Made by a program: the position numbers and the translations under genes
Assembly: GCA_030645995.1 (NCBI GenBank)
Contig: JAUSMU010000200.1
Span: 1 to 64,000, forward strand
Length of the DNA: 64,000 bases
Source: Gammaproteobacteria bacterium
Lineage (GTDB): Bacteria > Pseudomonadota > Gammaproteobacteria > Pseudomonadales > Pseudohongiellaceae
Reading direction: 5' to 3'
The notes under the pieces: model-generated
The model's database searches: none
The model's input: the letters and a program-made list of their open reading frames with translations, nothing else
Told to the model about the DNA's origin: nothing
In this document: one piece after another, positions 7,389-61,221 of the stretch
How the letters are laid out: each line of letters begins with the position of its first letter
How positions within the stretch are numbered: the stretch's first letter is position 1

Positions 7389-8429
7389 TCAATGCCCTGG
7401 CTTGGTGTCGGCTCGCTGAACTAGTTTGCGTAGCCGCAGGAACAGGTCTTCCAGCATCAACTGGCTGTTCGGATTAGAAGTGCCGGCCAGCTGGGCCTGC
7501 ACCACAGCAACTTCATTGTAGAGTGAAAATAGTGATCGTGTCGGTAGATTCGCGTCACTCGCCTGCCCCAGCAAGGTTGCCGCAGCATTCCTCAACGCCT
7601 CCCCCTTGAGCACGTCCTTTCGACCACAGAGGCGGTATTTGGTCAAGGAGCTAAGCCAGAACCCCAGTACCCGCAGTACCTCGGACGGTTGGGATTTGGC
7701 ATAGCGTGCTGCCAGCGCCAGTGGCTGGATGCGGCCCTGAATCAGCTGCAACAAGGCTTCGCCGATTTCCTGCACCTGAGTACTGCTCCCGGAGGTGTAC
7801 ATGGCTCTGGCGGCGAATGGACGCCCCTGGGTCAATTCGAGCAGCAGTTCGAGTTCACTGGTGGGCTCCTTGATTTGCTCTCCCAGCCAGGCGAGAGATT
7901 GCCAGTTCGCTGGTCTGGGCAGGTTCAGCACCTGGCAACGGCTGGCGATTGTGGCGAGTACGGCTTTGGGGCGGTCCGTCAGCAACAGAAACAGTACGTC
8001 GGCAGGTGGCTCTTCCAACCCTTTCAACAATGCATTGGCCGAGCTGATGCCCAGACTTTCAGCGGTATCGAGGATGATAATACGGCGCCCAAACGCGTGA
8101 GAGCTGGTTTCCAGAAATGATTTCAATTCCCGGATCTGGTCGACTTTGATGACCTTGCCACCATCCTCAGCCTCCACCAGCAGCAGATCGGGGTTGTTGC
8201 CAGCTTCGTTCAACAAACAAGTGGAGCAGCTGCCGCAGGGAGCATTGGCCTCGGGATTCCGGCACAGGAGGAATTGCGCGAGCATGGTCGCAAAATAGCG
8301 TTTGCCCGTGTCGGCATCGCCTCTGAACATGAAAGCATGAGGCATCTTGTCTCTGCGACACTGTCTGAGCACCAGCTCCCATGCCTCCTGCTGCCATGGC
8401 AGCGTTTTTTGCAGTATCGGAGATTTCAC
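7389..8429 (-). CDS. holB: DNA polymerase III subunit delta'
   Basis: AAA+ clamp-loader motifs, zinc module [27 protein letters not shown]. Confidence 0.9.
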
Positions 8430-8749
8430 AACTTGGTTTCCAAGTGTTTGCGGATTTCAGTTTGTACGCTTTCCAGTGTCATGGCCGCATCAATCACGAC
8501 GCAACGATCGGGGTCCCTGTTGGCGCGCGTCAGGTAAGCTTCCCGTACACGATTGAAGAATTCGACTTTCTCCTGTTCGAAGCGATCCAGCTCTCCCCTC
8601 TGGCGTGCCCGCAGCAGGCCAATCTCGGGCGCCAAATCCAGAATGTAGGTAATGTCCGGCCGCAACTCACCCTGCACCATTGTCTCCAGAGCCGCAATTG
8701 TGCTTATCGACAACCCCCTACCGCCACCTTGATAAGCATAGGTCGCATC
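8426..8749 (-). pseudogene. tmk: 3' fragment of thymidylate kinase, separated from its 5' half by the island
   Basis: [32 protein letters not shown]...[26 protein letters not shown] matches the Tmk C-terminal half; P-loop half is missing. Confidence 0.93.
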
Positions 8750-8780
8750 TTGTTTTACGCTTCCCAAAAATGTAAACGTG

Positions 8781-8808
8781 TTGAAATTATATTCCAGGGG
8801 CATACAAT
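8781..8808 (+). promoter_or_regulatory. Putative sigma70 promoter for the kinase-recombinase operon
   Basis: TTGAAA (8781-8786), 16 bp, TACAAT (8803-8808), upstream of ATG at 8861. Confidence 0.5.
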
Positions 8809-8813
8809 GTAAA
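8786..8813 (-). promoter_or_regulatory. Putative outward sigma70 promoter reading into tmk'-holB-pilZ
   Basis: Minus strand TTTACA (8808-8813), 16 bp, TATAAT (8786-8791). Confidence 0.6.
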
Positions 8814-8860
8814 CCTATACACACAAGTAGATTCTAGGAAGTTAAGGCAGCGAGTATATC

Positions 8861-9670
8861 ATGAGGAAAATCATAGGACTTGCTGCAAAAGCCAGATCCG
8901 GGAAAGACACAGTTGCTTCCATGCTTATGAAGCAAGAAAGTGTTTCTGCTTACGCGCTTGCAGATCCTCTCAAAATCGCATGTCAAGCTCTTTTTGGATT
9001 AACAGACAAAGAGACATGGGATGATGAGATCAAGGAAAGGAAAATCCCATTATGGGGTAGATCTCCGAGGGAGTTCTTCCAGCTCGTAGGTACGGACTGG
9101 CTACGTAATTTAAATCCCGAGCACTGGTTACTCAGGGCTGACCAGGTCTTAAACCATGGTGCGGAAGGAAGCGATTTGGCTAGCGATGCGGATCTCGCTG
9201 ATTCCAGCGCGCATTTCTATCTTGCTGCACAAGCCGTTTTTGGGCTGTCCCATCCAGAGGCGTGGGACTTAAGGAATCAAGACCTGCCTATTGGCTTCTG
9301 GGAGATGACTCCTAATGAGATGACTAGTTTTCTGAAAAAGAAAGCACGGTCAAGCTTCAAAGACTATGACGAGCTTCGGTCTCAAAGACCGGTTAACAAT
9401 CCTACTCGCACATTGCCCAGATGTAACAGTGATGTGGTTATCATCAAAGATATTCGATTTGAAAATGAGGCTGCATTCCTCAGAGAAAGAAAGGGAGTCA
9501 TCTGGCACATCGTTCGAGACAAAAAAAATGAAGTGAACAGCCATAGTTCCGAAGCAGGCATCCAGGTTCAGCCCTCTGATGTAACTATCGATAACAATGG
9601 AACACTACAAGATTTACAGGCCGTTGTTGACTTCAACTGGAGGTCCTTTTCTGATCTCAGATATTTTTGA
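8861..9670 (+). CDS. Deoxynucleoside monophosphate kinase, phage T4 gp1-like
   Basis: P-loop GLAAKARSGKDTVA, ALADPLK, FFQLVGTDWLR, and VIHVVR/EAG/ITNDGSLEEL-like tail (VIWHIVRDKKNEVNSHSSEAGIQVQPSDVTIDNNGTLQDL) align by eye with remembered T4 gp1. Confidence 0.85.
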   Translation: MRKIIGLAAKARSGKDTVASMLMKQESVSAYALADPLKIACQALFGLTDKETWDDEIKERKIPLWGRSPREFFQLVGTDWLRNLNPEHWLLRADQVLNHGAEGSDLASDADLADSSAHFYLAAQAVFGLSHPEAWDLRNQDLPIGFWEMTPNEMTSFLKKKARSSFKDYDELRSQRPVNNPTRTLPRCNSDVVIIKDIRFENEAAFLRERKGVIWHIVRDKKNEVNSHSSEAGIQVQPSDVTIDNNGTLQDLQAVVDFNWRSFSDLRYF

Positions 9671-11834
9671 TGTAAAAGGGGTAGAGACGGCTGACGGGAG
9701 GTTTGTTTATGCCCGGTACCTTCAGCATTACTCTTTTGATGCAGAAAATTCTTTGCATGAAGATTTGCATCGGGTCTTTATTACTTCATTGTCTGAAAAG
9801 AGCTTCGCTGCTGCGTACGCTCTAAACCAAGCGATTGAGGCGTTTCTTGATTTCATTTCTAAGCACAACCCAGAACAACCAGAATCGCTGAGAATATCCT
9901 CCTTAGAAGCGCTTAACACAGAAAACTTCAGAGCTTTTATTAAGTACCTAAGAAAGTCCAATCTCAGGGTAGAGAACGCTGTATTCCTCAAGGCAGCAAT
10001 TCACACTTTTGCTGATCATACCCCCACCTTTAGACGCCCTATATTACCCATGGTTGGGGTAGAAAAAGGCCCACCAACCGAGCCATTAAGCGATGAGTGC
10101 TTCGAGCAGCTTCAAGCCGCTCTGTTCACTGAAATAGACCGCCTTTACCAGAAAATTGCGTTTATTCAAGAGGTAGAACAGGCAGTACCCTACACATGGG
10201 AAGAGGCGATGGCTGAGATCTTCCCCGGTAAAACAAAAGCAAACGTGTTTAAGTCCTGGGAGGATAGATCCACTAAAAATAAGCGTCTACCGAGAGAAGC
10301 ACAAATTCGTAATCTCCTTAAAGACTGCAGTGACGCGGAGCTCCGTAATTTAGCTCTCTCCCCTGCCCTAAATATAACTAGAGATTTCATATCAATCTAT
10401 GAACGCGACCGCAATCTATTAGACACTCAAAATGTTGTTGACGACCAGTACAAGAGGGGACTACGCAATTGGGATTTCGATATTCGACGCGCCTTGAAAA
10501 CAGTTCTTATGTCCGGCTACCCCATGAAGATGAGTCTGGATTATATTGCTGAAAATTACAGACATGACAATCTCATTGGACTTGATGATTGCAAGACAGT
10601 TCAAGATTTATTCATGCTTCGCATGGTTCGGAGTGGCACTAAGTACAAATATGAGGAAGCAGGGGGTAATTGGGACGGGTTTTTATCCAAATATTTCCCT
10701 TCGATGACTGATGCGGCCGCTTTGTATTTGATGATTGCGGTCCAGTCTGGCTGGAACAAAGAGACGGTATTTGCACTCGACTCAGAGAACTTCGAACATG
10801 CACTTGCCGGTGTTTTACATGAAAGCCAAACGCTTATTTACTCAGAGAAAAATAGAAGCCAGGGCACAAAGCTCCCCTATTCCGACCCAAAACAATTCCT
10901 CGCCCCTAGCAACCGGGATGATAAATATTCAATCTATAATATCATCCAGCTGTGTAAGAAGATTTCAGCTCCTCTTCACGGGTACGAATTCGACTTCATG
11001 CATGCATACCATGACGAAAGTGATTTAAACCCTCTTTTCTTGTGCATTAGGTACTGGGCCGACTGGGTTTCCAAGGGAGGTCGACATACCTCACTCTCTC
11101 AGAACAAAGCGTTCTCGACAGGCATTGCGCACTTCTTAAAAAAGAATGGCATCTCTGAGAACGGAAAGCCTCTCTCTAGGCCTTCTGATATCACACTAAA
11201 AACGCGAGTTACATGGATAAATCAAAAGCGAAAAACACTCCCTCTGTCTGTTATGCGTTTGATTCAAGGACACGAGTCGGAAGATACAACCGATGTGTTC
11301 TACGACAGTTCTGGTATTGCCATGCAAGCCAGGAAAATACTCCTGCGTGATGAGTTAGAGGACATAACGCGTCTTCTTAGAGCCAGGAAGTTTGAGGGCT
11401 TGGTGTCTAGTAACACAGATCACAAAGTGACAGCATCACTGAGAGTCTTTCACATACCCAGTCATGAAAAGGATTTATGGGGCTGCTCGGATCAATACCG
11501 CCCAACATGGCGTGGACATGATCTATATGTCGGCAAGGGCGCTAAATGTAGCAAGATCTCAAAGTGTATCTTCTGCCAGCAAGTTCGTCTCTTTGATGAC
11601 TCTGTGCCTTACCTTTTGACGCGTCTAGACCAACTCATTGACGCCTTCAATATCGACGAAAAAAACGACAGTGATCTTGCTCAAGAGTACGAAATAATTC
11701 GAGGTATCTTAGATGGCTGGGATGATGATGACTTGATGAAGGAGTCAACACGCTTTATTAGGCGAAACCCTAGTCTGCTTCCATCTGATCTGAATGACTT
11801 GCAGATTATATTTGAGGATGAGGAAATTGCCTAA
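9597..11834 (+). CDS. Large tyrosine-recombinase-like protein (first recombinase)
   Basis: IQGHESEDTTDVFYDSSG box II-like segment; C-terminal CSKISKCIFC Cys cluster; overlaps adjacent recombinase genes. Confidence 0.7.
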   Translation: MEHYKIYRPLLTSTGGPFLISDIFDVKGVETADGRFVYARYLQHYSFDAENSLHEDLHRVFITSLSEKSFAAAYALNQAIEAFLDFISKHNPEQPESLRISSLEALNTENFRAFIKYLRKSNLRVENAVFLKAAIHTFADHTPTFRRPILPMVGVEKGPPTEPLSDECFEQLQAALFTEIDRLYQKIAFIQEVEQAVPYTWEEAMAEIFPGKTKANVFKSWEDRSTKNKRLPREAQIRNLLKDCSDAELRNLALSPALNITRDFISIYERDRNLLDTQNVVDDQYKRGLRNWDFDIRRALKTVLMSGYPMKMSLDYIAENYRHDNLIGLDDCKTVQDLFMLRMVRSGTKYKYEEAGGNWDGFLSKYFPSMTDAAALYLMIAVQSGWNKETVFALDSENFEHALAGVLHESQTLIYSEKNRSQGTKLPYSDPKQFLAPSNRDDKYSIYNIIQLCKKISAPLHGYEFDFMHAYHDESDLNPLFLCIRYWADWVSKGGRHTSLSQNKAFSTGIAHFLKKNGISENGKPLSRPSDITLKTRVTWINQKRKTLPLSVMRLIQGHESEDTTDVFYDSSGIAMQARKILLRDELEDITRLLRARKFEGLVSSNTDHKVTASLRVFHIPSHEKDLWGCSDQYRPTWRGHDLYVGKGAKCSKISKCIFCQQVRLFDDSVPYLLTRLDQLIDAFNIDEKNDSDLAQEYEIIRGILDGWDDDDLMKESTRFIRRNPSLLPSDLNDLQIIFEDEEIA

Positions 11835-13851
11835 AGTACCTGATGTAGAAGATTATATTGATCCTGTAGGATATTCTCTTGATAGTGAGAATATTGCCAA
11901 AGAAGAGTTTGATTATCTAATTCTTTCTACTGAAGTGGAAAGCGATGTTAGAGGCACTTCGTTAAAGCGGAAAGTACATGAATCAACCAATCTAGATTTT
12001 CCGGTATCCGACTACTCAAGCTATAAAGACGACTGTTGGACTTTGGAATATCAAACAGGGAGAAGTCCAGTAAGAGTTCATTTCCAGAGCATGGTGCCAG
12101 ACAGCATAGAACTGGCGCGTGCACTCATTTACTACTCAATTCCAGACTTTTGTCCGACAGGTGGTATCAAGAGTTACTCTACTATTCCGACACGCTCAGT
12201 CGGCTTAAAGCTACTGTATCGGTACGTATTCGAAGACAATAAGCTCTCATTATTTGATGGAGGAATTCAATGCATCACTCCTATCCTGCTCAACAGTGCG
12301 CTTGATAAGGCAAAGGAAAAAAACCCGAATTCACATTATCGAGGTCTTTACGCCATGCTACGCCTGTGGACCAACCTGTCTAATCAACGGTTGATACCAG
12401 ACCATCTGTGCCTAGAAACAAATTTCGATCTAGTCGACACCAAAAAGCGTCGGAAGGATGTGCAACAATCTTTTCAAGGCTCTATACAAAGCTGGATCCC
12501 GTATTCAAATCGAGATATTGAGAAGTTAATGAGCTACACCCTTTTCTGGCTAGAAAAGGGTCTTCCCTCTCTTAAGAACGTTCGAAATTATTTAGGAAAT
12601 CTCACGTTAAGGACGTCTAAGAAAGGCAAGGGCGACGTCTACGTTTCTCCAAGCTTCGATAGAGGCTTCGAGCACGCTATGGATGTTGTAATTGATGATT
12701 TACGGATAATGGATTTCAAAGTGAATCGAAACTACTCTGGCGGACAAGTGGATTATCGCTGGAAATCGTTCTATGCCATCTCCCTAGACCATATCCGCAA
12801 TTCACTTTTTATTATGGTAGCGATGCTTCTCGGTATGCGCAATAGAGAGCTATGCCAACTTACCCTAAATGACTTCTACCGAGATCATTCGGGCAATTTT
12901 TGGGTTGATATAACACGGTTTAAAACCGCCAAAGATCCTAACTTCCAAGGTAAAATCGAGTCAATGCCATGTCCTCAGTTTTTAGGGGAATGCGTTGAGC
13001 AATACAAATATCTTAAAGACATCGCTGGATTTGAAAAGGAAGGCTGTCTTTTTCAATCCAACAAGAGCCGAAGAGTTGTCAATAATTTAATCAGCTCAAA
13101 CCTAAGAATCATTACAGACGAACTGTCTAAACTGATAGACGTTGATCGCATTCACGTACACCGTTTCAGAAAGACAACAGCAGAGATATTGATCAACAGA
13201 AGCGAATACAGCATAGACTTGATCAGGATGTTGTTTGGGCATCAAAGCTACAGGATGACTCTTAAATATATCGCACGTAATCCTTTTATGGTTCGTCAAG
13301 TTGCTGAGGCATTTGAAGTAAACTTCACTGAAGGATTTCACGAGGTAATTCAGCAGATCAGACAGGACTCCTATTCTGGAAAGCCTGCTGATCGGCTCGC
13401 CAACGCCATTATTGCACATCCAGAGAAATTCAACGGTAAAAAGCTTAAGATGCAGATACTCAATTATGTCTCGCACCTTCTTTCAAGTGGCGATATTGTT
13501 TTGATTTCTAGAACAGCATTAGGAAGTTATTGCCTCTTCAGCCGTAATACGGCTTCAGACACTCCGCTCCCCTGTCTGGAAGGCCGCCTTGTAATCGGCG
13601 ACATTACTCCTGATATATCAAATTGCCAACTCCACTGTGATCACTGCGTGGTTGTTAGCGAAACCAGCAAGGCAATCACTCGAAATATCGCTTTCTATGA
13701 AGCTCTGCTTGAATCAAAAAGTCTCGGAGTACGGGCTGAAAAAACCCTACGACAAAAACTTATGGTCAATGAGAAACACCTTGAAAACCTAACTAATAAC
13801 AAACTAAGGGTCAGTAGTGCGCTAGGTCTCATCAACACGGTGACTCTGTGA
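11794..13851 (+). CDS. Tyrosine recombinase, Tn554 TnpB-like
   Basis: LLGMRNREL (Arg I), HVHRFRKTTAEIL (HxxR), LFGHQSYRMTLKYI (GH...Y), C-terminal CQLHCDHC. Confidence 0.82.
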   Translation: MTCRLYLRMRKLPKVPDVEDYIDPVGYSLDSENIAKEEFDYLILSTEVESDVRGTSLKRKVHESTNLDFPVSDYSSYKDDCWTLEYQTGRSPVRVHFQSMVPDSIELARALIYYSIPDFCPTGGIKSYSTIPTRSVGLKLLYRYVFEDNKLSLFDGGIQCITPILLNSALDKAKEKNPNSHYRGLYAMLRLWTNLSNQRLIPDHLCLETNFDLVDTKKRRKDVQQSFQGSIQSWIPYSNRDIEKLMSYTLFWLEKGLPSLKNVRNYLGNLTLRTSKKGKGDVYVSPSFDRGFEHAMDVVIDDLRIMDFKVNRNYSGGQVDYRWKSFYAISLDHIRNSLFIMVAMLLGMRNRELCQLTLNDFYRDHSGNFWVDITRFKTAKDPNFQGKIESMPCPQFLGECVEQYKYLKDIAGFEKEGCLFQSNKSRRVVNNLISSNLRIITDELSKLIDVDRIHVHRFRKTTAEILINRSEYSIDLIRMLFGHQSYRMTLKYIARNPFMVRQVAEAFEVNFTEGFHEVIQQIRQDSYSGKPADRLANAIIAHPEKFNGKKLKMQILNYVSHLLSSGDIVLISRTALGSYCLFSRNTASDTPLPCLEGRLVIGDITPDISNCQLHCDHCVVVSETSKAITRNIAFYEALLESKSLGVRAEKTLRQKLMVNEKHLENLTNNKLRVSSALGLINTVTL

Positions 13852-14825
13852 GTGAAGATACCCGTAATAGACTAATCAAGCTGATTGTTCGGGAACGCAT
13901 CGAAAATCCCTCAAAGAAGCTCCTAATAGCGGACATCTGTAAACGGGCTTCGATCACACGACAATCCTTCCATCGCTACCATAACGACCTAAAACCTTAC
14001 ATAAAGGGCGAAAGAGCTATCAGTGAACTTTTAGCCGAGATCGATGAGCAATCGGATAATGAAATTCTGAATGATTTCTATCGAAAAAGTGTTGAGCTGG
14101 ATCGAGAAATTTCTCGCATAAAAGATTCCCATAGACGTGAAATAAAGGCTCTTGAGAACAGGCTGACTACAAGCCTGATGAACGACGATATCTCCCTATT
14201 CAACAGTGAAGAGTTACGGATTCGGTTAGACAAACAAAGTCTGCATAACAATAAACTGGTTCAAAGGATAAAAAATTTAGAGATGGAGTTGGCAGTAACC
14301 AAAAGTCATGTGCAAACAGTGCCTCATAAGAACCCTCTAACCGAGTTTACAGTTATTAGCGAGGACCTCAATCCAATCTTCAAAAACTATGCAGCAAAAA
14401 AAGACATTGAGCTATTTGAAAGCGAAAAGGATGCTGCCATAGAACAGATCATAAAGAGCACGAATAAGCTATGTAGCTATAACACGGTGGTCGTTGTATT
14501 CGTAGACCGATATCTGTGTAGCTTTGAAAAATTTGTCGACAACTACATCTTTTCAAGCCAATCACCCCACCTTTTTGTGAGACTGCCTGTCCATACACGG
14601 ACCGAATTGCGAATAGCGCTGAAAAAATTCAATACCAAGGCTGTTCTTAAACTTTATATGCCCTACGCGGACAGCGAGACAACCCAGAAAGCTCAGCGTC
14701 GATTCTATTATAATGAGGTGCCTAGTATAGAGCTTGAGGCTGCTGACAAGGCATATCTCCCCACCATAAGTGACCAGTTTTCTCTTCAATCCATTAGTTC
14801 ATTTAAAGTGAATTCGAGCGACTGA
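13848..14825 (+). CDS. HTH/coiled-coil accessory recombination protein (TnpC-like)
   Basis: IADICKRASITRQSFHRYHNDLKPYI HTH, then coiled coil; start and stop overlap flanking recombinases. Confidence 0.65.
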   Translation: MSEDTRNRLIKLIVRERIENPSKKLLIADICKRASITRQSFHRYHNDLKPYIKGERAISELLAEIDEQSDNEILNDFYRKSVELDREISRIKDSHRREIKALENRLTTSLMNDDISLFNSEELRIRLDKQSLHNNKLVQRIKNLEMELAVTKSHVQTVPHKNPLTEFTVISEDLNPIFKNYAAKKDIELFESEKDAAIEQIIKSTNKLCSYNTVVVVFVDRYLCSFEKFVDNYIFSSQSPHLFVRLPVHTRTELRIALKKFNTKAVLKLYMPYADSETTQKAQRRFYYNEVPSIELEAADKAYLPTISDQFSLQSISSFKVNSSD

Positions 14826-16108
14826 TGATCCGCTTCCAAACGTTTCCAATAGCATATGAAAACATTGATACTTACAGTATTGTAGAACACTACGTTGTGA
14901 AAGCTTTAAACGTAAAAGGAAAAGATATCCTGCTAAGCTTCCCCAACATTTATTTGTTCAAAGAAACCGCTGACTCACTAAATACATCAAAGCGATATGC
15001 CAATGTAATAACCATGTTCTATACGTTCCTTTCAACCACCGATAAGTTTAGAGACATTAATGTGGGCGAATACCATGTCATTGCTGATAACAATGACATC
15101 CGTCGATGGCAAATAGAGCGGCAGACCAAGAGAGTTGCCCATCAGTCGGAAAGCCCAACCTCAAAAACTATCTTCGAGGACGCTAGGGTTGTCTTGTCAT
15201 TTTTTATGTGGATTGAGAAGGTAGGTCAAATCACCAATGTAAACGTTGAGACGAAGACTTGGGTAGCACGTTTTAAAAGCAGAAGGATGCTGCATCACAT
15301 TCAAAAAGAGGCCAAGATCGCAATTGATGCAAAAAACATACAAGCTCTAGACAAGGCCAGCAGGCAAAAGAAGAGCAAGTCACTGATCACTGACAGAGAA
15401 ATTGAGGCACTGCTGAAGTCGTACGTTGACCCCGTCTACCCCGCTCTCTTCCTGTTAGGACTCGGAACCGGAATGAGGCCGGTCGAACTGGTAAAGTTTC
15501 CTTACATTGGAACGGGAAAGAACAAGGACATACTACCATTCCCGGAAATGGACAATGTTAAAGCCACGGTTGCATTCGAAGTTACCGGCAAGGGCAACAA
15601 AACACGTGATGTTATCGTTAACCTGAAAGACCTGTGTGATTTATACGAGCTTTACACAAAGCCTTACTACCAGGAGCGACGAAAGCTGTATTCCCTTATT
15701 CATGAAAAGGATTGCTCCCCGTCCATCCTCTTTCTCAATAAGAATGGCTATCCGGTCACACCTAAAATGATCTCTCGGATCACCAACAATGCAAAGAAAA
15801 AAGCAAAGAAGATCTATCCGGATTTTCGAGAAAAAATTACGTTTTATGAGGCAAGGCACTGGTGGCCTACTATGTTCGCCATCGAGTTTTTCAAAGAGAA
15901 GCTCCTTACCGGATCAGCAGAAGCTCTCTACACAGCGTTTGCTCAAGCATTGACAGAACAATTGGGGCACAACGATATCGAAACCACATACAAATACTAC
16001 ATCGATATGGCACGACTCGTATATCAGGCTCAATCAGGCAGTGTTCATGAACTGCTCACCAACCCAGTTAAGTCGGTTCGTGAAAGGCTTATAGAAATGC
16101 AATCTTAA
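14825..16108 (+). CDS. Tyrosine recombinase/integrase
   Basis: LGLGTGMRPVELVKF, YEARHWWPTMFA, EQLGHNDIETTYKYYID. Confidence 0.9.
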   Translation: MIRFQTFPIAYENIDTYSIVEHYVVKALNVKGKDILLSFPNIYLFKETADSLNTSKRYANVITMFYTFLSTTDKFRDINVGEYHVIADNNDIRRWQIERQTKRVAHQSESPTSKTIFEDARVVLSFFMWIEKVGQITNVNVETKTWVARFKSRRMLHHIQKEAKIAIDAKNIQALDKASRQKKSKSLITDREIEALLKSYVDPVYPALFLLGLGTGMRPVELVKFPYIGTGKNKDILPFPEMDNVKATVAFEVTGKGNKTRDVIVNLKDLCDLYELYTKPYYQERRKLYSLIHEKDCSPSILFLNKNGYPVTPKMISRITNNAKKKAKKIYPDFREKITFYEARHWWPTMFAIEFFKEKLLTGSAEALYTAFAQALTEQLGHNDIETTYKYYIDMARLVYQAQSGSVHELLTNPVKSVRERLIEMQS

Positions 16109-56934: not shown

Positions 56935-57360
56935 CTAATCAGACGAGAAATCATTGTAGACCGCTGGAATGACTGTGAGGCGGACACCAGGGCCACATAG
57001 AATATAGTTTGTGTTCTTCGAACTGAAAATGCATTGATAATGGAATGCCTCTAGGAGCGTGGTTCGCACAAAAGAACCTTCAACCCAACGATTCCTTTCG
57101 TCAAAAATAATCTTGTTTGCGTATAAAAAACAGGGCTTAACACCAGCTTCCTCGATCTCTTGCGCTTGACGCGGATCAATCTCGACATCTGCCCAACACC
57201 AGCGCGCAACAACGCAACACGGTTTATTTGGAAAGAGCTCTCTAGCAAGTGCAATAGCTTGTTCAACCATTTCCTCGCTACAGCCATAGTCACAGTAATC
57301 GCCCTGCTCATTTAACAGTTGTGAGAACTGTTCGAGCATCAAGTCACTTCTTCGTGTCAT
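56935..57360 (-). CDS. Hypothetical protein
   Basis: 141 aa ORF overlapping the phosphoesterase by 17 nt. Confidence 0.55.
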   Translation of the reverse strand: MTRRSDLMLEQFSQLLNEQGDYCDYGCSEEMVEQAIALARELFPNKPCCVVARWCWADVEIDPRQAQEIEEAGVKPCFLYANKIIFDERNRWVEGSFVRTTLLEAFHYQCIFSSKNTNYILCGPGVRLTVIPAVYNDFSSD

Positions 57361-58168
57361 CGTCGGTGCCTGTGTCTAAGACGATCAATCTACTAGGGTC
57401 ATACCTCGGGATGCGCCCATCCTCTGATGGATAGCCGAGCTGATTGCTGACGATCCTGGTTCGGCCAAACTCTAGATCATTACTGAAATGATTGTGGCCG
57501 TAAATCCAGAGCGCCGGTTGATAACTGTTTATCAAGAATTCCGCGTTCGCATTGAAATATGCAGTGAGAGGACTTACCATAAAGTTTGGATTAGCAGTTG
57601 CCATTCCAGGCGGAAAATGGGTCACGACAATTGTTCTTTGAGGGTCGCAAGCCGCCAATTGCTCGTCCAGAAATCGATGACTTTCCTGAAATTTATTGGA
57701 GACGAATTTCGGACTTATTGGTGATCCCGCACGGGTTCTAATAAAACGAAAGTCCGATATAAGCTGCTCAGCTTGTTCCATTGCCAATTCCGAGTCACCC
57801 AAGATAGAAAAATCCGTCCACAGAGTACATCCGAGAAACTTGATACCGAATAGTTCGACGGAATCGTTCTCTAGAAAATGAATTCGATCTTGGTGGGTGC
57901 ATATTTTGCGATAGAGATCGATCTGATCATCGATACTGTTGCCATAAAACTCGTGGTTGCCAGCGATCCACACGATATGTGTCTCCGGATACCACTCGGC
58001 CAGGTCGAAGGCTACATCAGCGGCCTGCATACCCACAGCAATGTCTCCTGCCAGGACGATTACATCACTCTCTGGTGGAAAGTTTAACGCCCTAATGCGG
58101 CGCTGAGTTCTCGTGGGAGGTAGGTGAAGGTCAGAGGCATACGCGATAGAGATTTTTGGATTTTTCAT
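57344..58168 (-). CDS. Calcineurin-like metallophosphoesterase
   Basis: ASDLHLPP, VLAGDIAVG, IAGNHEFYG, VTHFPPG, YGHNHFSND. Confidence 0.92.
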   Translation of the reverse strand: MKNPKISIAYASDLHLPPTRTQRRIRALNFPPESDVIVLAGDIAVGMQAADVAFDLAEWYPETHIVWIAGNHEFYGNSIDDQIDLYRKICTHQDRIHFLENDSVELFGIKFLGCTLWTDFSILGDSELAMEQAEQLISDFRFIRTRAGSPISPKFVSNKFQESHRFLDEQLAACDPQRTIVVTHFPPGMATANPNFMVSPLTAYFNANAEFLINSYQPALWIYGHNHFSNDLEFGRTRIVSNQLGYPSEDGRIPRYDPSRLIVLDTGTDDDTKK

Positions 58169-58225
58169 GTCAGAATTTTCATTTCCTTACGCATAGATAA
58201 AATTCAATTGATGATTGAGTGACCA

Positions 58226-59614
58226 TTACACAAATAAGTTCAAAACTCGCTGAGAATACATGTCAGACAGAGAAAGTCTCACAGATATATTTGATTGCAT
58301 ATTGTGGTTTTTACGCTCTTCGGTCTCTGCTTCTGAATATCCAGAATCCAAATTTAACTCTATCGGATCTGTTAGGGCGTGGCCAAAAGTTGCATCATGC
58401 TCTCCACCATTTGAGTGTGCGATGTACAATTTACTGACAACGGACTGATCCGATGGAAGATCGATCTGGATACGGTGACAGTATTCCTCCAGTTTCGGTT
58501 CAACGTATAAATACAGCCACGCAGTCTCGTCGGTGGAATTGCTGCGGCGAAGGATGCGTCCTAAAACTTGGCGCAGATAGAGCTCCGTTCGTACCCGACT
58601 CAAATAACAACAGACTTGTAGTCGAGGTATATCAGTGCCTTCGCTAATCATACCCACCGATACAATCCAGCGCGCATCCCCGCGTCTAAAATCGTCTATC
58701 GCTTTTTGAGAACCGCTGTTCTGATAGGAGACCACTGTCGAGGTCTCTCCCTGTCTGAGGAGAATTTCCGAAATCTGGTTTGCATGCGCCACCGTAGACG
58801 CAACAATGAGTCCTGCTGCGTTAGGCTTGTCGATACGAAGAGAGTTCAATCGCTGATTCGCGATCTCTAGCATCTTTCCTATTGCAGCATCCTCCTCCAG
58901 CAGGTGTTGGTAGCGGGTATCAGAATTCAGGAGTAGATCTCGGATACTGCTGAAGCATTCCGAATAGAATTCAGTATTTGAAGTCTCGGTGCGTTCTATA
59001 TGCTGATTGTCGAGCAATATAATTCGAGGCCTTCTGCAGACCTTGTCCTCTATGGCCTGGTCCAGACCGTAGACATAATCTCTGACTAACTCGCCCTCTG
59101 GCACCGTGTAACGCGCCAAAGCGACCAACCCATCATCTGTGCGCCAAGGAGTGCCGGACAGCGCCAGAGTGTACCGAGCCTTAGCCTGAATTTTGTCCGC
59201 AATCTGCTGCCCCCAAACATTCCCCGAAAGTGCTTCTTGACTTGCGCAGTGATGAATTTCATCGAAAATCACCAGTACACGGTATTGGTCAAAGAGACTC
59301 CAGAATCGCTCATCTCTAAAGGCCATTGCCTGGTAGGTATATGCACACCCCAAAGAACCCAACTGCCCATCAAAAGGTGATTGGAATATTTCTTCGAGAG
59401 TCATGGTAAATGCATCTGCGACTTGTATGGTCGGCGCGAAGACGAGAATCAAATCGATTTGATTCTCTACGTGTAGCTGTTTGGCCAACTCTGCCGACAT
59501 TCGAGTTTTGCCCGCTCCAGGAGTGGCCTGACAGAGAAAATGCCTGCTCGTTTGGAAGTGACTCAGCGCTGATCTAATGCAGTTTGACTGCCACGCTCGT
59601 AACCCGGCTGTCAT
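58226..59614 (-). CDS. SF2 DEAD/DEAH-type helicase
   Basis: CQATPGAGKTRMSAELA (Walker A), VIFDEIHHC (DEIH), ALSGTPWRTD, QVLGRILRR. Confidence 0.92.
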   Translation of the reverse strand: MTAGLRAWQSNCIRSALSHFQTSRHFLCQATPGAGKTRMSAELAKQLHVENQIDLILVFAPTIQVADAFTMTLEEIFQSPFDGQLGSLGCAYTYQAMAFRDERFWSLFDQYRVLVIFDEIHHCASQEALSGNVWGQQIADKIQAKARYTLALSGTPWRTDDGLVALARYTVPEGELVRDYVYGLDQAIEDKVCRRPRIILLDNQHIERTETSNTEFYSECFSSIRDLLLNSDTRYQHLLEEDAAIGKMLEIANQRLNSLRIDKPNAAGLIVASTVAHANQISEILLRQGETSTVVSYQNSGSQKAIDDFRRGDARWIVSVGMISEGTDIPRLQVCCYLSRVRTELYLRQVLGRILRRSNSTDETAWLYLYVEPKLEEYCHRIQIDLPSDQSVVSKLYIAHSNGGEHDATFGHALTDPIELNLDSGYSEAETEERKNHNMQSNISVRLSLSDMYSQRVLNLFV

Positions 59615-60207
59615 TGGTGTTCTGCTAATATTTTGACAGTCTGCTCCAGAGCCCTGAGTTGCCCCATTAGGTTTGAACTTTTGTCTCTGGATTTATGGTA
59701 AGTGCTCTCCAGTTTTTCCCTCAGACAGGGATGCTCTGCCAAAATAGATTTGTACGTTTCCGCCTCCCCAAGCGTGGCAATGAATTGCATCCGGATCTCA
59801 TTTAGATTGGTCTCAATCTCATGGAACGAACTGGCAGTAGGTGAGGTAGATGAAGCTGCCACACCATTTGGCGTCTTGGCAGTCGGTAGAGATACGTCCA
59901 GTCGCCCGAATACGGGTTCAACCAGATTCAACGTGAAGTTCTGGGGAAGGTCCTGGACACGATATTGGGCATTCCTGCTCATGTGTTCGCCTTCCTTAAG
60001 CACCCAGCCAACCCTTACCAAACGTCCCACCTGTTTATATACATAGCGTCGGAGCTCTCTCGATGAGGCCGGCAATCGTCCGGAAACGCACCGCTGATAC
60101 TCAATTCGCAGCTGGGTAACCGTAAAAATAGAAAAGCTTGGCGCTTGTATAATTTCAGCCAGTACTCGATCTAATGCGAATGTCCGTGATTTCATTAAGC
60201 GTCTCAT
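59611..60207 (-). CDS. Hypothetical protein co-operonic with the helicase
   Basis: 4-bp overlap with helicase start; N-terminal wHTH-like, C-terminal coiled coil. Confidence 0.65.
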   Translation of the reverse strand: MRRLMKSRTFALDRVLAEIIQAPSFSIFTVTQLRIEYQRCVSGRLPASSRELRRYVYKQVGRLVRVGWVLKEGEHMSRNAQYRVQDLPQNFTLNLVEPVFGRLDVSLPTAKTPNGVAASSTSPTASSFHEIETNLNEIRMQFIATLGEAETYKSILAEHPCLREKLESTYHKSRDKSSNLMGQLRALEQTVKILAEHQ

Positions 60208-60234
60208 TGTGGGCCGAAAAGATCGCGAAAAAGA

Positions 60235-60284
60235 GGATTATAATCCGTGGTTGTATAGTCCGCAATGCTGCATATTCGCAGCAT
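60235..60284. promoter_or_regulatory. Putative XRE operator region
   Basis: Palindrome GGATTATAATCC (60235-60246) and inverted repeat ATGCTGC-N6-GCAGCAT (60265-60284) in the divergent intergenic region. Confidence 0.45.
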
Positions 60285-60513
60285 GGATCTGGCATTATTA
60301 TTAGGTAAAAGAATTCGCGATAAGCGCAAATCTGCGGGAATCGCCCAAGAGAGCCTAGCCCTTGCGTGTGGGCTGGACCGCAGTTATATGGGGAGGATTG
60401 AGCGCGGAGAGGTTAATATCACTGTGATGTCTCTGTGCCAGATCGCCCAAGCCTTAAATTGCTCGGCCCAAGAGCTTCTGCCTGAATGTAGATTCGGCCT
60501 TCAAAAGATGTAA
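60283..60513 (+). CDS. XRE-family HTH regulator
   Basis: LGKRIRDKRKSAGIAQESLALACGLDRSYMGRIERGEVNITVMSLCQIAQAL; start may be 60265 or 60283. Confidence 0.87.
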   Translation: MDLALLLGKRIRDKRKSAGIAQESLALACGLDRSYMGRIERGEVNITVMSLCQIAQALNCSAQELLPECRFGLQKM

Positions 60514-60661: not shown

Positions 60662-60885
60662 GTTTACATATTAGTCAAATTCAAAAGGCCTGAAGCGCTC
60701 CGGCGGAGGTGAATCTAGTTTACATTTTTCACTCAGACGTCAATTATGCGAAAGGTTTACATTTTAGAGGTGGTTTCGAGCCTAAGGTCAGATAAATGCA
60801 TAAAGCAAAAGCCGACTTACAAGCCAAAAACGCGCTTCTAAGGGCGTTTTTGCGCTCTACTCACTCAGGAACTTGATTGTTTACA
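60662..60885 (+). repeat. Right-end GTTTACA repeats (four copies)
   Basis: Copies at 60662, 60718, 60755 and 60879; the 60718/60755 pair has the same 37-bp spacing as the left end, opposite orientation. Confidence 0.72.
60825..60852. terminator. Possible bidirectional terminator just inside the right end
   Basis: CAAAAACGC-N10-GCGTTTTTG; GC part of the stem is short. Confidence 0.35.
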
Positions 60886-61221
60886 TAGGTCCCTTGAGGA
60901 ATATAAACTTGCGGTAAATCTGTCACAGACGACCCATTTGCCTTCCTGCAGGGCCGGGGCAATCACATGGTGAATGTGCTGTGCTCTGGCGGCGAAGATA
61001 AGCAACAATTCTGTGAGTTCGCAGATGTGCTCATCACGCTTGTGCAACAGGAGTTGACGAATCAATTCAGCGACTGGCGTGCCGCCTGGTTCGCGAGTCA
61101 CGATGTAGGGAATCTGTGCCGCTTCCAACATTGATGTGATGAATTGAATATTGGTCGTCTTGCCGACGCCCTCTACACCTTCGATCGTGATGAATCGGGC
61201 TTTTGTAATGTTGCTGATCAT
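60865..61221 (-). pseudogene. tmk: 5' fragment of thymidylate kinase; host part 60913-61221, then element-derived tail
   Basis: [17 protein letters not shown]...[18 protein letters not shown]...WVVCDRFT, then non-homologous [15 protein letters not shown] and stop. Confidence 0.93.

Follow-up and report, generated by a model that had tools for sequence, protein, structure and literature searches.

The island described here breaks the thymidylate kinase gene (tmk) of its host, and it is highly probable that a deoxynucleoside monophosphate kinase (dNMPK) encoded by the island supplies the dTMP kinase activity. The island lies within the window, that is, the whole 64,000-nucleotide stretch of DNA that was analysed. 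We propose that a tyrosine-recombinase island of this kind would enter the essential tmk gene at a fixed codon position, just after DRF-T, and break it, and that its boundary-adjacent first gene, a T4 gp1-type dNMP kinase, would supply dTMP kinase activity during integration. Transcription of holB, the essential gene downstream, would probably be maintained from a promoter-like stretch at the edge of the island, and precise excision across six codon-aligned base pairs should return an in-frame tmk.

The sequence-only reading had presented such a strategy as undescribed for tmk. It has in fact already been proven for PP_1964 of Pseudomonas putida KT2440 (Wirth et al. 2023 mBio, PMC10653934). 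In this strain, a 65-kb island splits tmk, and the last gene of the island, PP_1964, is a T4-type dNMPK whose inactivation was possible only with E. coli tmk supplied and which complements an E. coli tmk strain (PMC10653934). Through base editing, island replacement, and complementation of an E. coli tmk strain, that study found the tmk halves dispensable and the dNMPK essential, so that essentiality and dTMP kinase function are established for an island of the same architecture as the one in the window (PMC10653934).

The split tmk and the island kinase

The target gene, the island, and its kinase are located as follows.

8426-8743, minus strand: 3′ half of the host tmk, abutting holB (PF02223 positions 92-185; joins the 5′ half in frame)
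8750-60906, no strand: inserted island of 52,157 bp, delimited by junction analysis
8861-9670, plus strand: dNMP kinase of the T4 gp1 / DNMK family, the predicted replacement dTMP kinase of the island (Pfam DNMK, PHROG 139, and 1dek sequence and fold matches)
60913-61221, minus strand: 5′ half of the host tmk, 103 codons to CDRFT, adjoining mltG (PF02223 positions 1-91)

A PF02223 search of the genome recovered Tmk pieces at 60907-61185 (minus strand, profile positions 1-91) and 8453-8743 (minus strand, profile positions 92-185). These halves flank the island, and the dNMPK is the first gene inside its left end, as the sequence-only reading had placed it. When the flanks are joined they encode a 210-aa Tmk with 93.8% identity to the congener Tmk, indicating that the insertion was precise and that the target gene was whole beforehand. 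No full Tmk was found elsewhere in the host by PF02223 (502-contig draft genome). Meanwhile, full-length Tmk is present in 12 of 13 congeners, and the remaining genome is 76% complete.

The only other PF02223 match in the host is a weak dCK-type kinase on contig C401. Its score of 34.6 bits is above the cut-off, which would allow that this or another host kinase supplies dTMP kinase and that the dNMPK has a different role. We consider this very unlikely: the C401 kinase adjoins panB, with poly(A) polymerase in the neighbourhood, and most relatives have a low-scoring counterpart of it alongside their full Tmk, for which reasons it was rejected as the missing enzyme. KT2440 also has a second gene with a thymidylate kinase annotation, PP_3363, which is non-essential (PMC10653934). 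The island dNMPK remains the preferred source of the activity.

The 8861-9670 reading frame encodes a product of 269 aa that contains the motifs SGKDT, ALADPLK, and LVGTDWLR, on which the gene had been read as a T4 gp1-like dNMP kinase. Homology searches agree with this assignment. The product matched Pfam DNMK (PF21448) with an E-value of 1.4e-24 and 87.4 bits (curated cut-off 27.1 bits), PHROG 139 (deoxynucleoside monophosphate kinase) at 4e-45, and T4 gp1 itself (1dek) at 8e-10 by phmmer and 3.6e-24 by family profile. It also keeps the residues that are invariant across phage and island dNMPKs, namely RSGKDT, R70, Q74, G77-T78, W89, and D197, as well as R199, E203, R219, H228, and E231.

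The comparison of folds with T4 gp1 made use of an AlphaFold model with a mean pLDDT of 84; an earlier model built from six close sequences (pLDDT 51) was set aside. 1dek ranked first in PDB (E=1.3e-8, probability 1.00) with other P-loop kinases behind it, and a true Tmk (3lv8) came at rank 20 (E=0.06). Because the fold matches reach TM-scores of no more than 0.44-0.50, which is modest, most weight is given to the sequence evidence, and the fold match serves as support rather than as standalone proof. The substitute had been described as having an unrelated fold, which does not hold: T4 gp1 and Tmk belong to different families, and both are P-loop NMP kinases.

By profile and fold search the window enzyme and T4 gp1 belong to one protein family, with the P-loop and C-terminal block kept. 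They differ in that the gene of the window enzyme sits in an island and not in a phage, and in that island dNMPKs have an extra stretch of approximately 85 residues (about 105-190), absent from the phage relatives compared. The extra stretch comes with an apparent internal repeat, in which residues about 39-71 and 121-153 of the window dNMPK resemble each other (39% over 33 aa). A scan of viral contigs with the island kinase found no relative, and a plasmid search with it retrieved two dNMPKs only, both distant. It is very likely, as judged from these matches and the genomic context, that the window kinase is a dTMP kinase standing in for the split tmk. The claim that it replaces the broken gene draws strong support from homology, from the co-occurrence in seven of seven genomes presented below, and from the KT2440 genetics (PMC10653934); it is from these that we infer the activity of the window enzyme.

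Architecture and junctions of the island

The kinase gene is followed by four genes, hereafter the quartet, and by a region of cargo.

9597-11834, plus strand: large quartet protein with an uncertain start, at most 745 aa long (homologues 48-50% identical in related islands)
11794-13851, plus strand: tyrosine recombinase, 685 aa (PF00589, E=1.1e-14)
13848-14825, plus strand: 325-aa member of the quartet (weak match to an HTH of the resolvase type; homologues in related islands)
14825-16108, plus strand: tyrosine recombinase, 427 aa (PF00589, E=3.6e-7)
18086-52824, no strand: cargo with copper resistance, RND pumps, and others (Pfam matches)

The large quartet protein gave no match in a Pfam search, and its conserved C-terminal block is Tyr-recombinase-like by eye. 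The 427-aa recombinase is the best conserved member of the quartet (61-64% in related islands). Among the cargo, copper resistance is represented by a P-type ATPase, a CusS/CusR-type sensor pair, a multicopper oxidase, CopB, CopD, and Cus-type efflux, and the other genes include two further RND pumps, a pyridine nucleotide-disulphide oxidoreductase, and a P450. No conjugation genes were found among the 19 larger cargo proteins searched. The right end of the island (57344-60513) encodes a calcineurin-like phosphoesterase, a DEAD/ResIII helicase, a 198-aa partner without assignment, and a small HTH_3 regulator, which possibly form a defence module.

The following features were identified at the island ends.

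8744-8749, minus strand: left-junction overlap of 6 bp, which here has the host sequence GATGCG, codons D-A (against intact congener tmk and joined flanks)
8771-8777 and 8808-8814 (8771-8814), plus strand: left-end TGTAAAC repeats with 37-bp spacing (repeat search)
8781-8808, plus strand: TTGAAA-16-TACAAT, a promoter-like site that reads inward to the dNMPK gene (10 of 12 consensus positions)
8786-8813, minus strand: TTTACA-16-TATAAT, a promoter-like site that reads outward to holB and the tmk 3′ half (agrees with the consensus at 11 of 12 positions)
60662, 60718, 60755, and 60879 (60662-60885), minus strand: right-end TGTAAAC repeats, inverted relative to the left end (repeat search)
60907-60912, minus strand: right-junction overlap of 6 bp, which here has the non-host sequence GCAAGT, codons A-S (against congener tmk and joined flanks)

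A codon-aligned 6-bp overlap occurs in the window island, in six related islands, and in the variant genome G360 (both junctions against the host tmk), some of the 3′ junctions of related islands having been read by eye. The versions at the two ends are unequal in the window and in genomes G416, G418, and G420. G416 displays TTATCG, its own tmk version, and GATGCA at the tmk 5′ junction, and G360 has GGCGCA at both junctions. The non-host version may have been carried over from the tmk of an earlier host. Joining the flanks with either window overlap yields an open 210-aa Tmk, and the codon-aligned overlap implies that precise excision should give the host its reading frame back.

TGTAAAC occurs in 10 copies in the window, six of them near the island ends, against a chance expectation of 3.3 for the whole window. 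The outward TTTACA, followed by 16 bp and a TATAAT-like hexamer, is found at the holB-facing end of all seven dNMPK islands, with position and spacing kept. The outward site may keep the essential holB expressed.

Recurrence of the island and a variant with another kinase

One scan of genome contigs with the 427-aa recombinase yielded seven loci. In seven genomes including the window, tmk is split at one shared site (profile positions about 90/91). In each of these seven split-tmk genomes a dNMPK adjoins the tmk 3′ half and a full-length Tmk is missing, in a sample that is small (seven genomes, window included) and was gathered via the recombinase. Quartet homologues are found in the related islands, Psychrobacter and Acinetobacter among them. 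Two Psychrobacter hosts have identical dNMPKs next to tmk 3′ halves at dS 2.6, and in two other hosts the dNMPKs are 96% identical and the tmk 3′ halves 49% identical. Such near-identical kinases beside divergent tmk halves show that there have been several independent insertions at the shared codon. The dN/dS of the kinase is about 0.12-0.15 in moderately diverged pairs, which is indicative of purifying selection; the closest pairs have too few changes to judge.

The survey of other islands in tmk also uncovered a variant. The element of G360 has the same four genes as the window quartet (34-51% identity), and its insertion splits tmk at the codons for the P-loop. The 3′ fragment of the host tmk is open and 85.5% identical to the congener Tmk. 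In the kinase slot, this element encodes a full-length Tmk (L052 11474-12100, L059 5746-6348), which is just 37.5% identical to the congener Tmk and is hence regarded as foreign. No dNMPK was found in the G360 genome. The slot can thus be filled by a replacement from either family of TMP kinases, the Tmk version being represented by one case. We found no earlier description of a tmk island carrying a Tmk in openly licensed papers, and the G360-type variant is apparently undescribed.

These comparisons bear on two alternative explanations. According to the first, each half of tmk is expressed on its own and the two products come together as a working split thymidylate kinase, in which case the dNMPK would be incidental cargo. 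Both halves do retain open reading frames in the window and, with no internal stops, in the other split genomes; recent insertion and the need to read into holB explain this equally well. The cut also separates the DRF motif from the remaining catalytic core, the G360 element carries a whole Tmk despite the open 3′ fragment of its host, and in KT2440 it is the dNMPK and not the halves that is indispensable (PMC10653934). An active split enzyme is therefore extremely unlikely.

The second alternative holds that the dNMPK is ordinary phage-derived cargo without a tie to tmk, associated with it by chance or through the ancestry of one island lineage. dNMPKs are indeed common in phages, and the islands all belong to one recombinase lineage. 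However, the dNMPK accompanies the insertion in tmk in all seven genomes, although the insertions were repeated and independent, G360, likewise inserted in tmk, holds its foreign full-length Tmk in that very slot, and the sole quartet-bearing genome with an intact tmk has no dNMPK. We give this explanation almost no credence, and supply of dTMP kinase by the island enzyme stands as the best explanation.

The last genome mentioned is Thalassotalea sp. ND16A (G419, L063), in which the quartet genes lie on a 4.8-kb contig; they are the remains of a decayed copy or else belong to an element at another site. An Acinetobacter locus (L064) was considered as a quartet element lacking a dNMPK and was rejected: its genome does contain a dNMPK together with a split tmk (contig C36), which IS insertions have perhaps separated from the quartet. 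Phage-type dNMPKs elsewhere in the order were also rejected as counter-examples, as all six genomes concerned keep a full Tmk; mltG, holB, and Tmk gave no match next to these dNMPKs in the stretches examined. No further quartet elements were found among 10 genomes of the genus to which G236 belongs (presumably Pseudomonas), 369 of the class, or 140 of the G360 family. Pseudomonas megaplasmids (hits H33-H40) encode integrases that are distant relatives, at 25-26% identity, and that perhaps belong to a wider family of four-gene recombinase elements.

Implications and comparison with known systems

Based on these findings, we tentatively suggest an element family specialised for codon-aligned tmk sites, with an interchangeable kinase slot as an addiction device and mismatched overlaps recording the tmk of the previous host, a scheme that we regard as possible and somewhat doubtful. 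The slot would hold a phage-type dNMPK at the DRF-T site and a foreign Tmk at the P-loop site. If true, it would act as an addiction device because the host relies on the kinase of the element unless precise exit restores tmk.

The present data move a one-strain case (KT2440) toward a rule, in which an element of this kind disrupts an essential gene and brings the enzyme with it. They offer a clean natural example of enzyme replacement through horizontal transfer, and the kinase that such islands bring is a reason why a host would not easily lose them. To judge from the G360 variant, it is the activity that is required, and not the enzyme family. It follows for genome annotation that a split tmk need not signal lost function.

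Tn916-type conjugative transposons use a tyrosine recombinase and a short coupling-sequence overlap, and their ends need not match. The window island resembles them in its tyrosine recombinase and in a short 6-bp overlap that may differ between ends, but it has a fixed, codon-aligned site in an essential gene and two recombinases in a four-gene block. ICEs of the SXT/R391 type, which insert in prfC, are an example of elements that rebuild the gene they enter. In both cases element DNA pays for the entry into an important gene, whereas the window island leaves tmk broken and brings a separate, whole enzyme.

The closest parallel is the KT2440 island. Both islands split tmk between mltG and holB, have a dNMPK as terminal gene, include four conserved neighbours with two tyrosine recombinases among them, carry metal-resistance cargo, and reside in hosts without another working Tmk. 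They differ in host and in cargo (copper and RND efflux in the window, arsenic in KT2440). The window kinase and PP_1964 are homologous at the family level, and the islands were matched by architecture rather than by direct alignment with PP_1960-PP_1964. Similar tmk islands have been seen in Pseudomonas, Halomonas, Acinetobacter, and Psychrobacter (PMC10653934), and the text of Wirth et al. 2023 consulted here makes no mention of a variant whose slot is filled by a Tmk and whose insertion site is the P-loop (PMC10653934). By its architecture the window island is a new member of the KT2440-type tmk islands, whose principle is already known. To this, our analysis adds the present member, evidence that insertion has recurred together with the kinase, a variant that carries a Tmk, and an overlap that preserves the reading frame.
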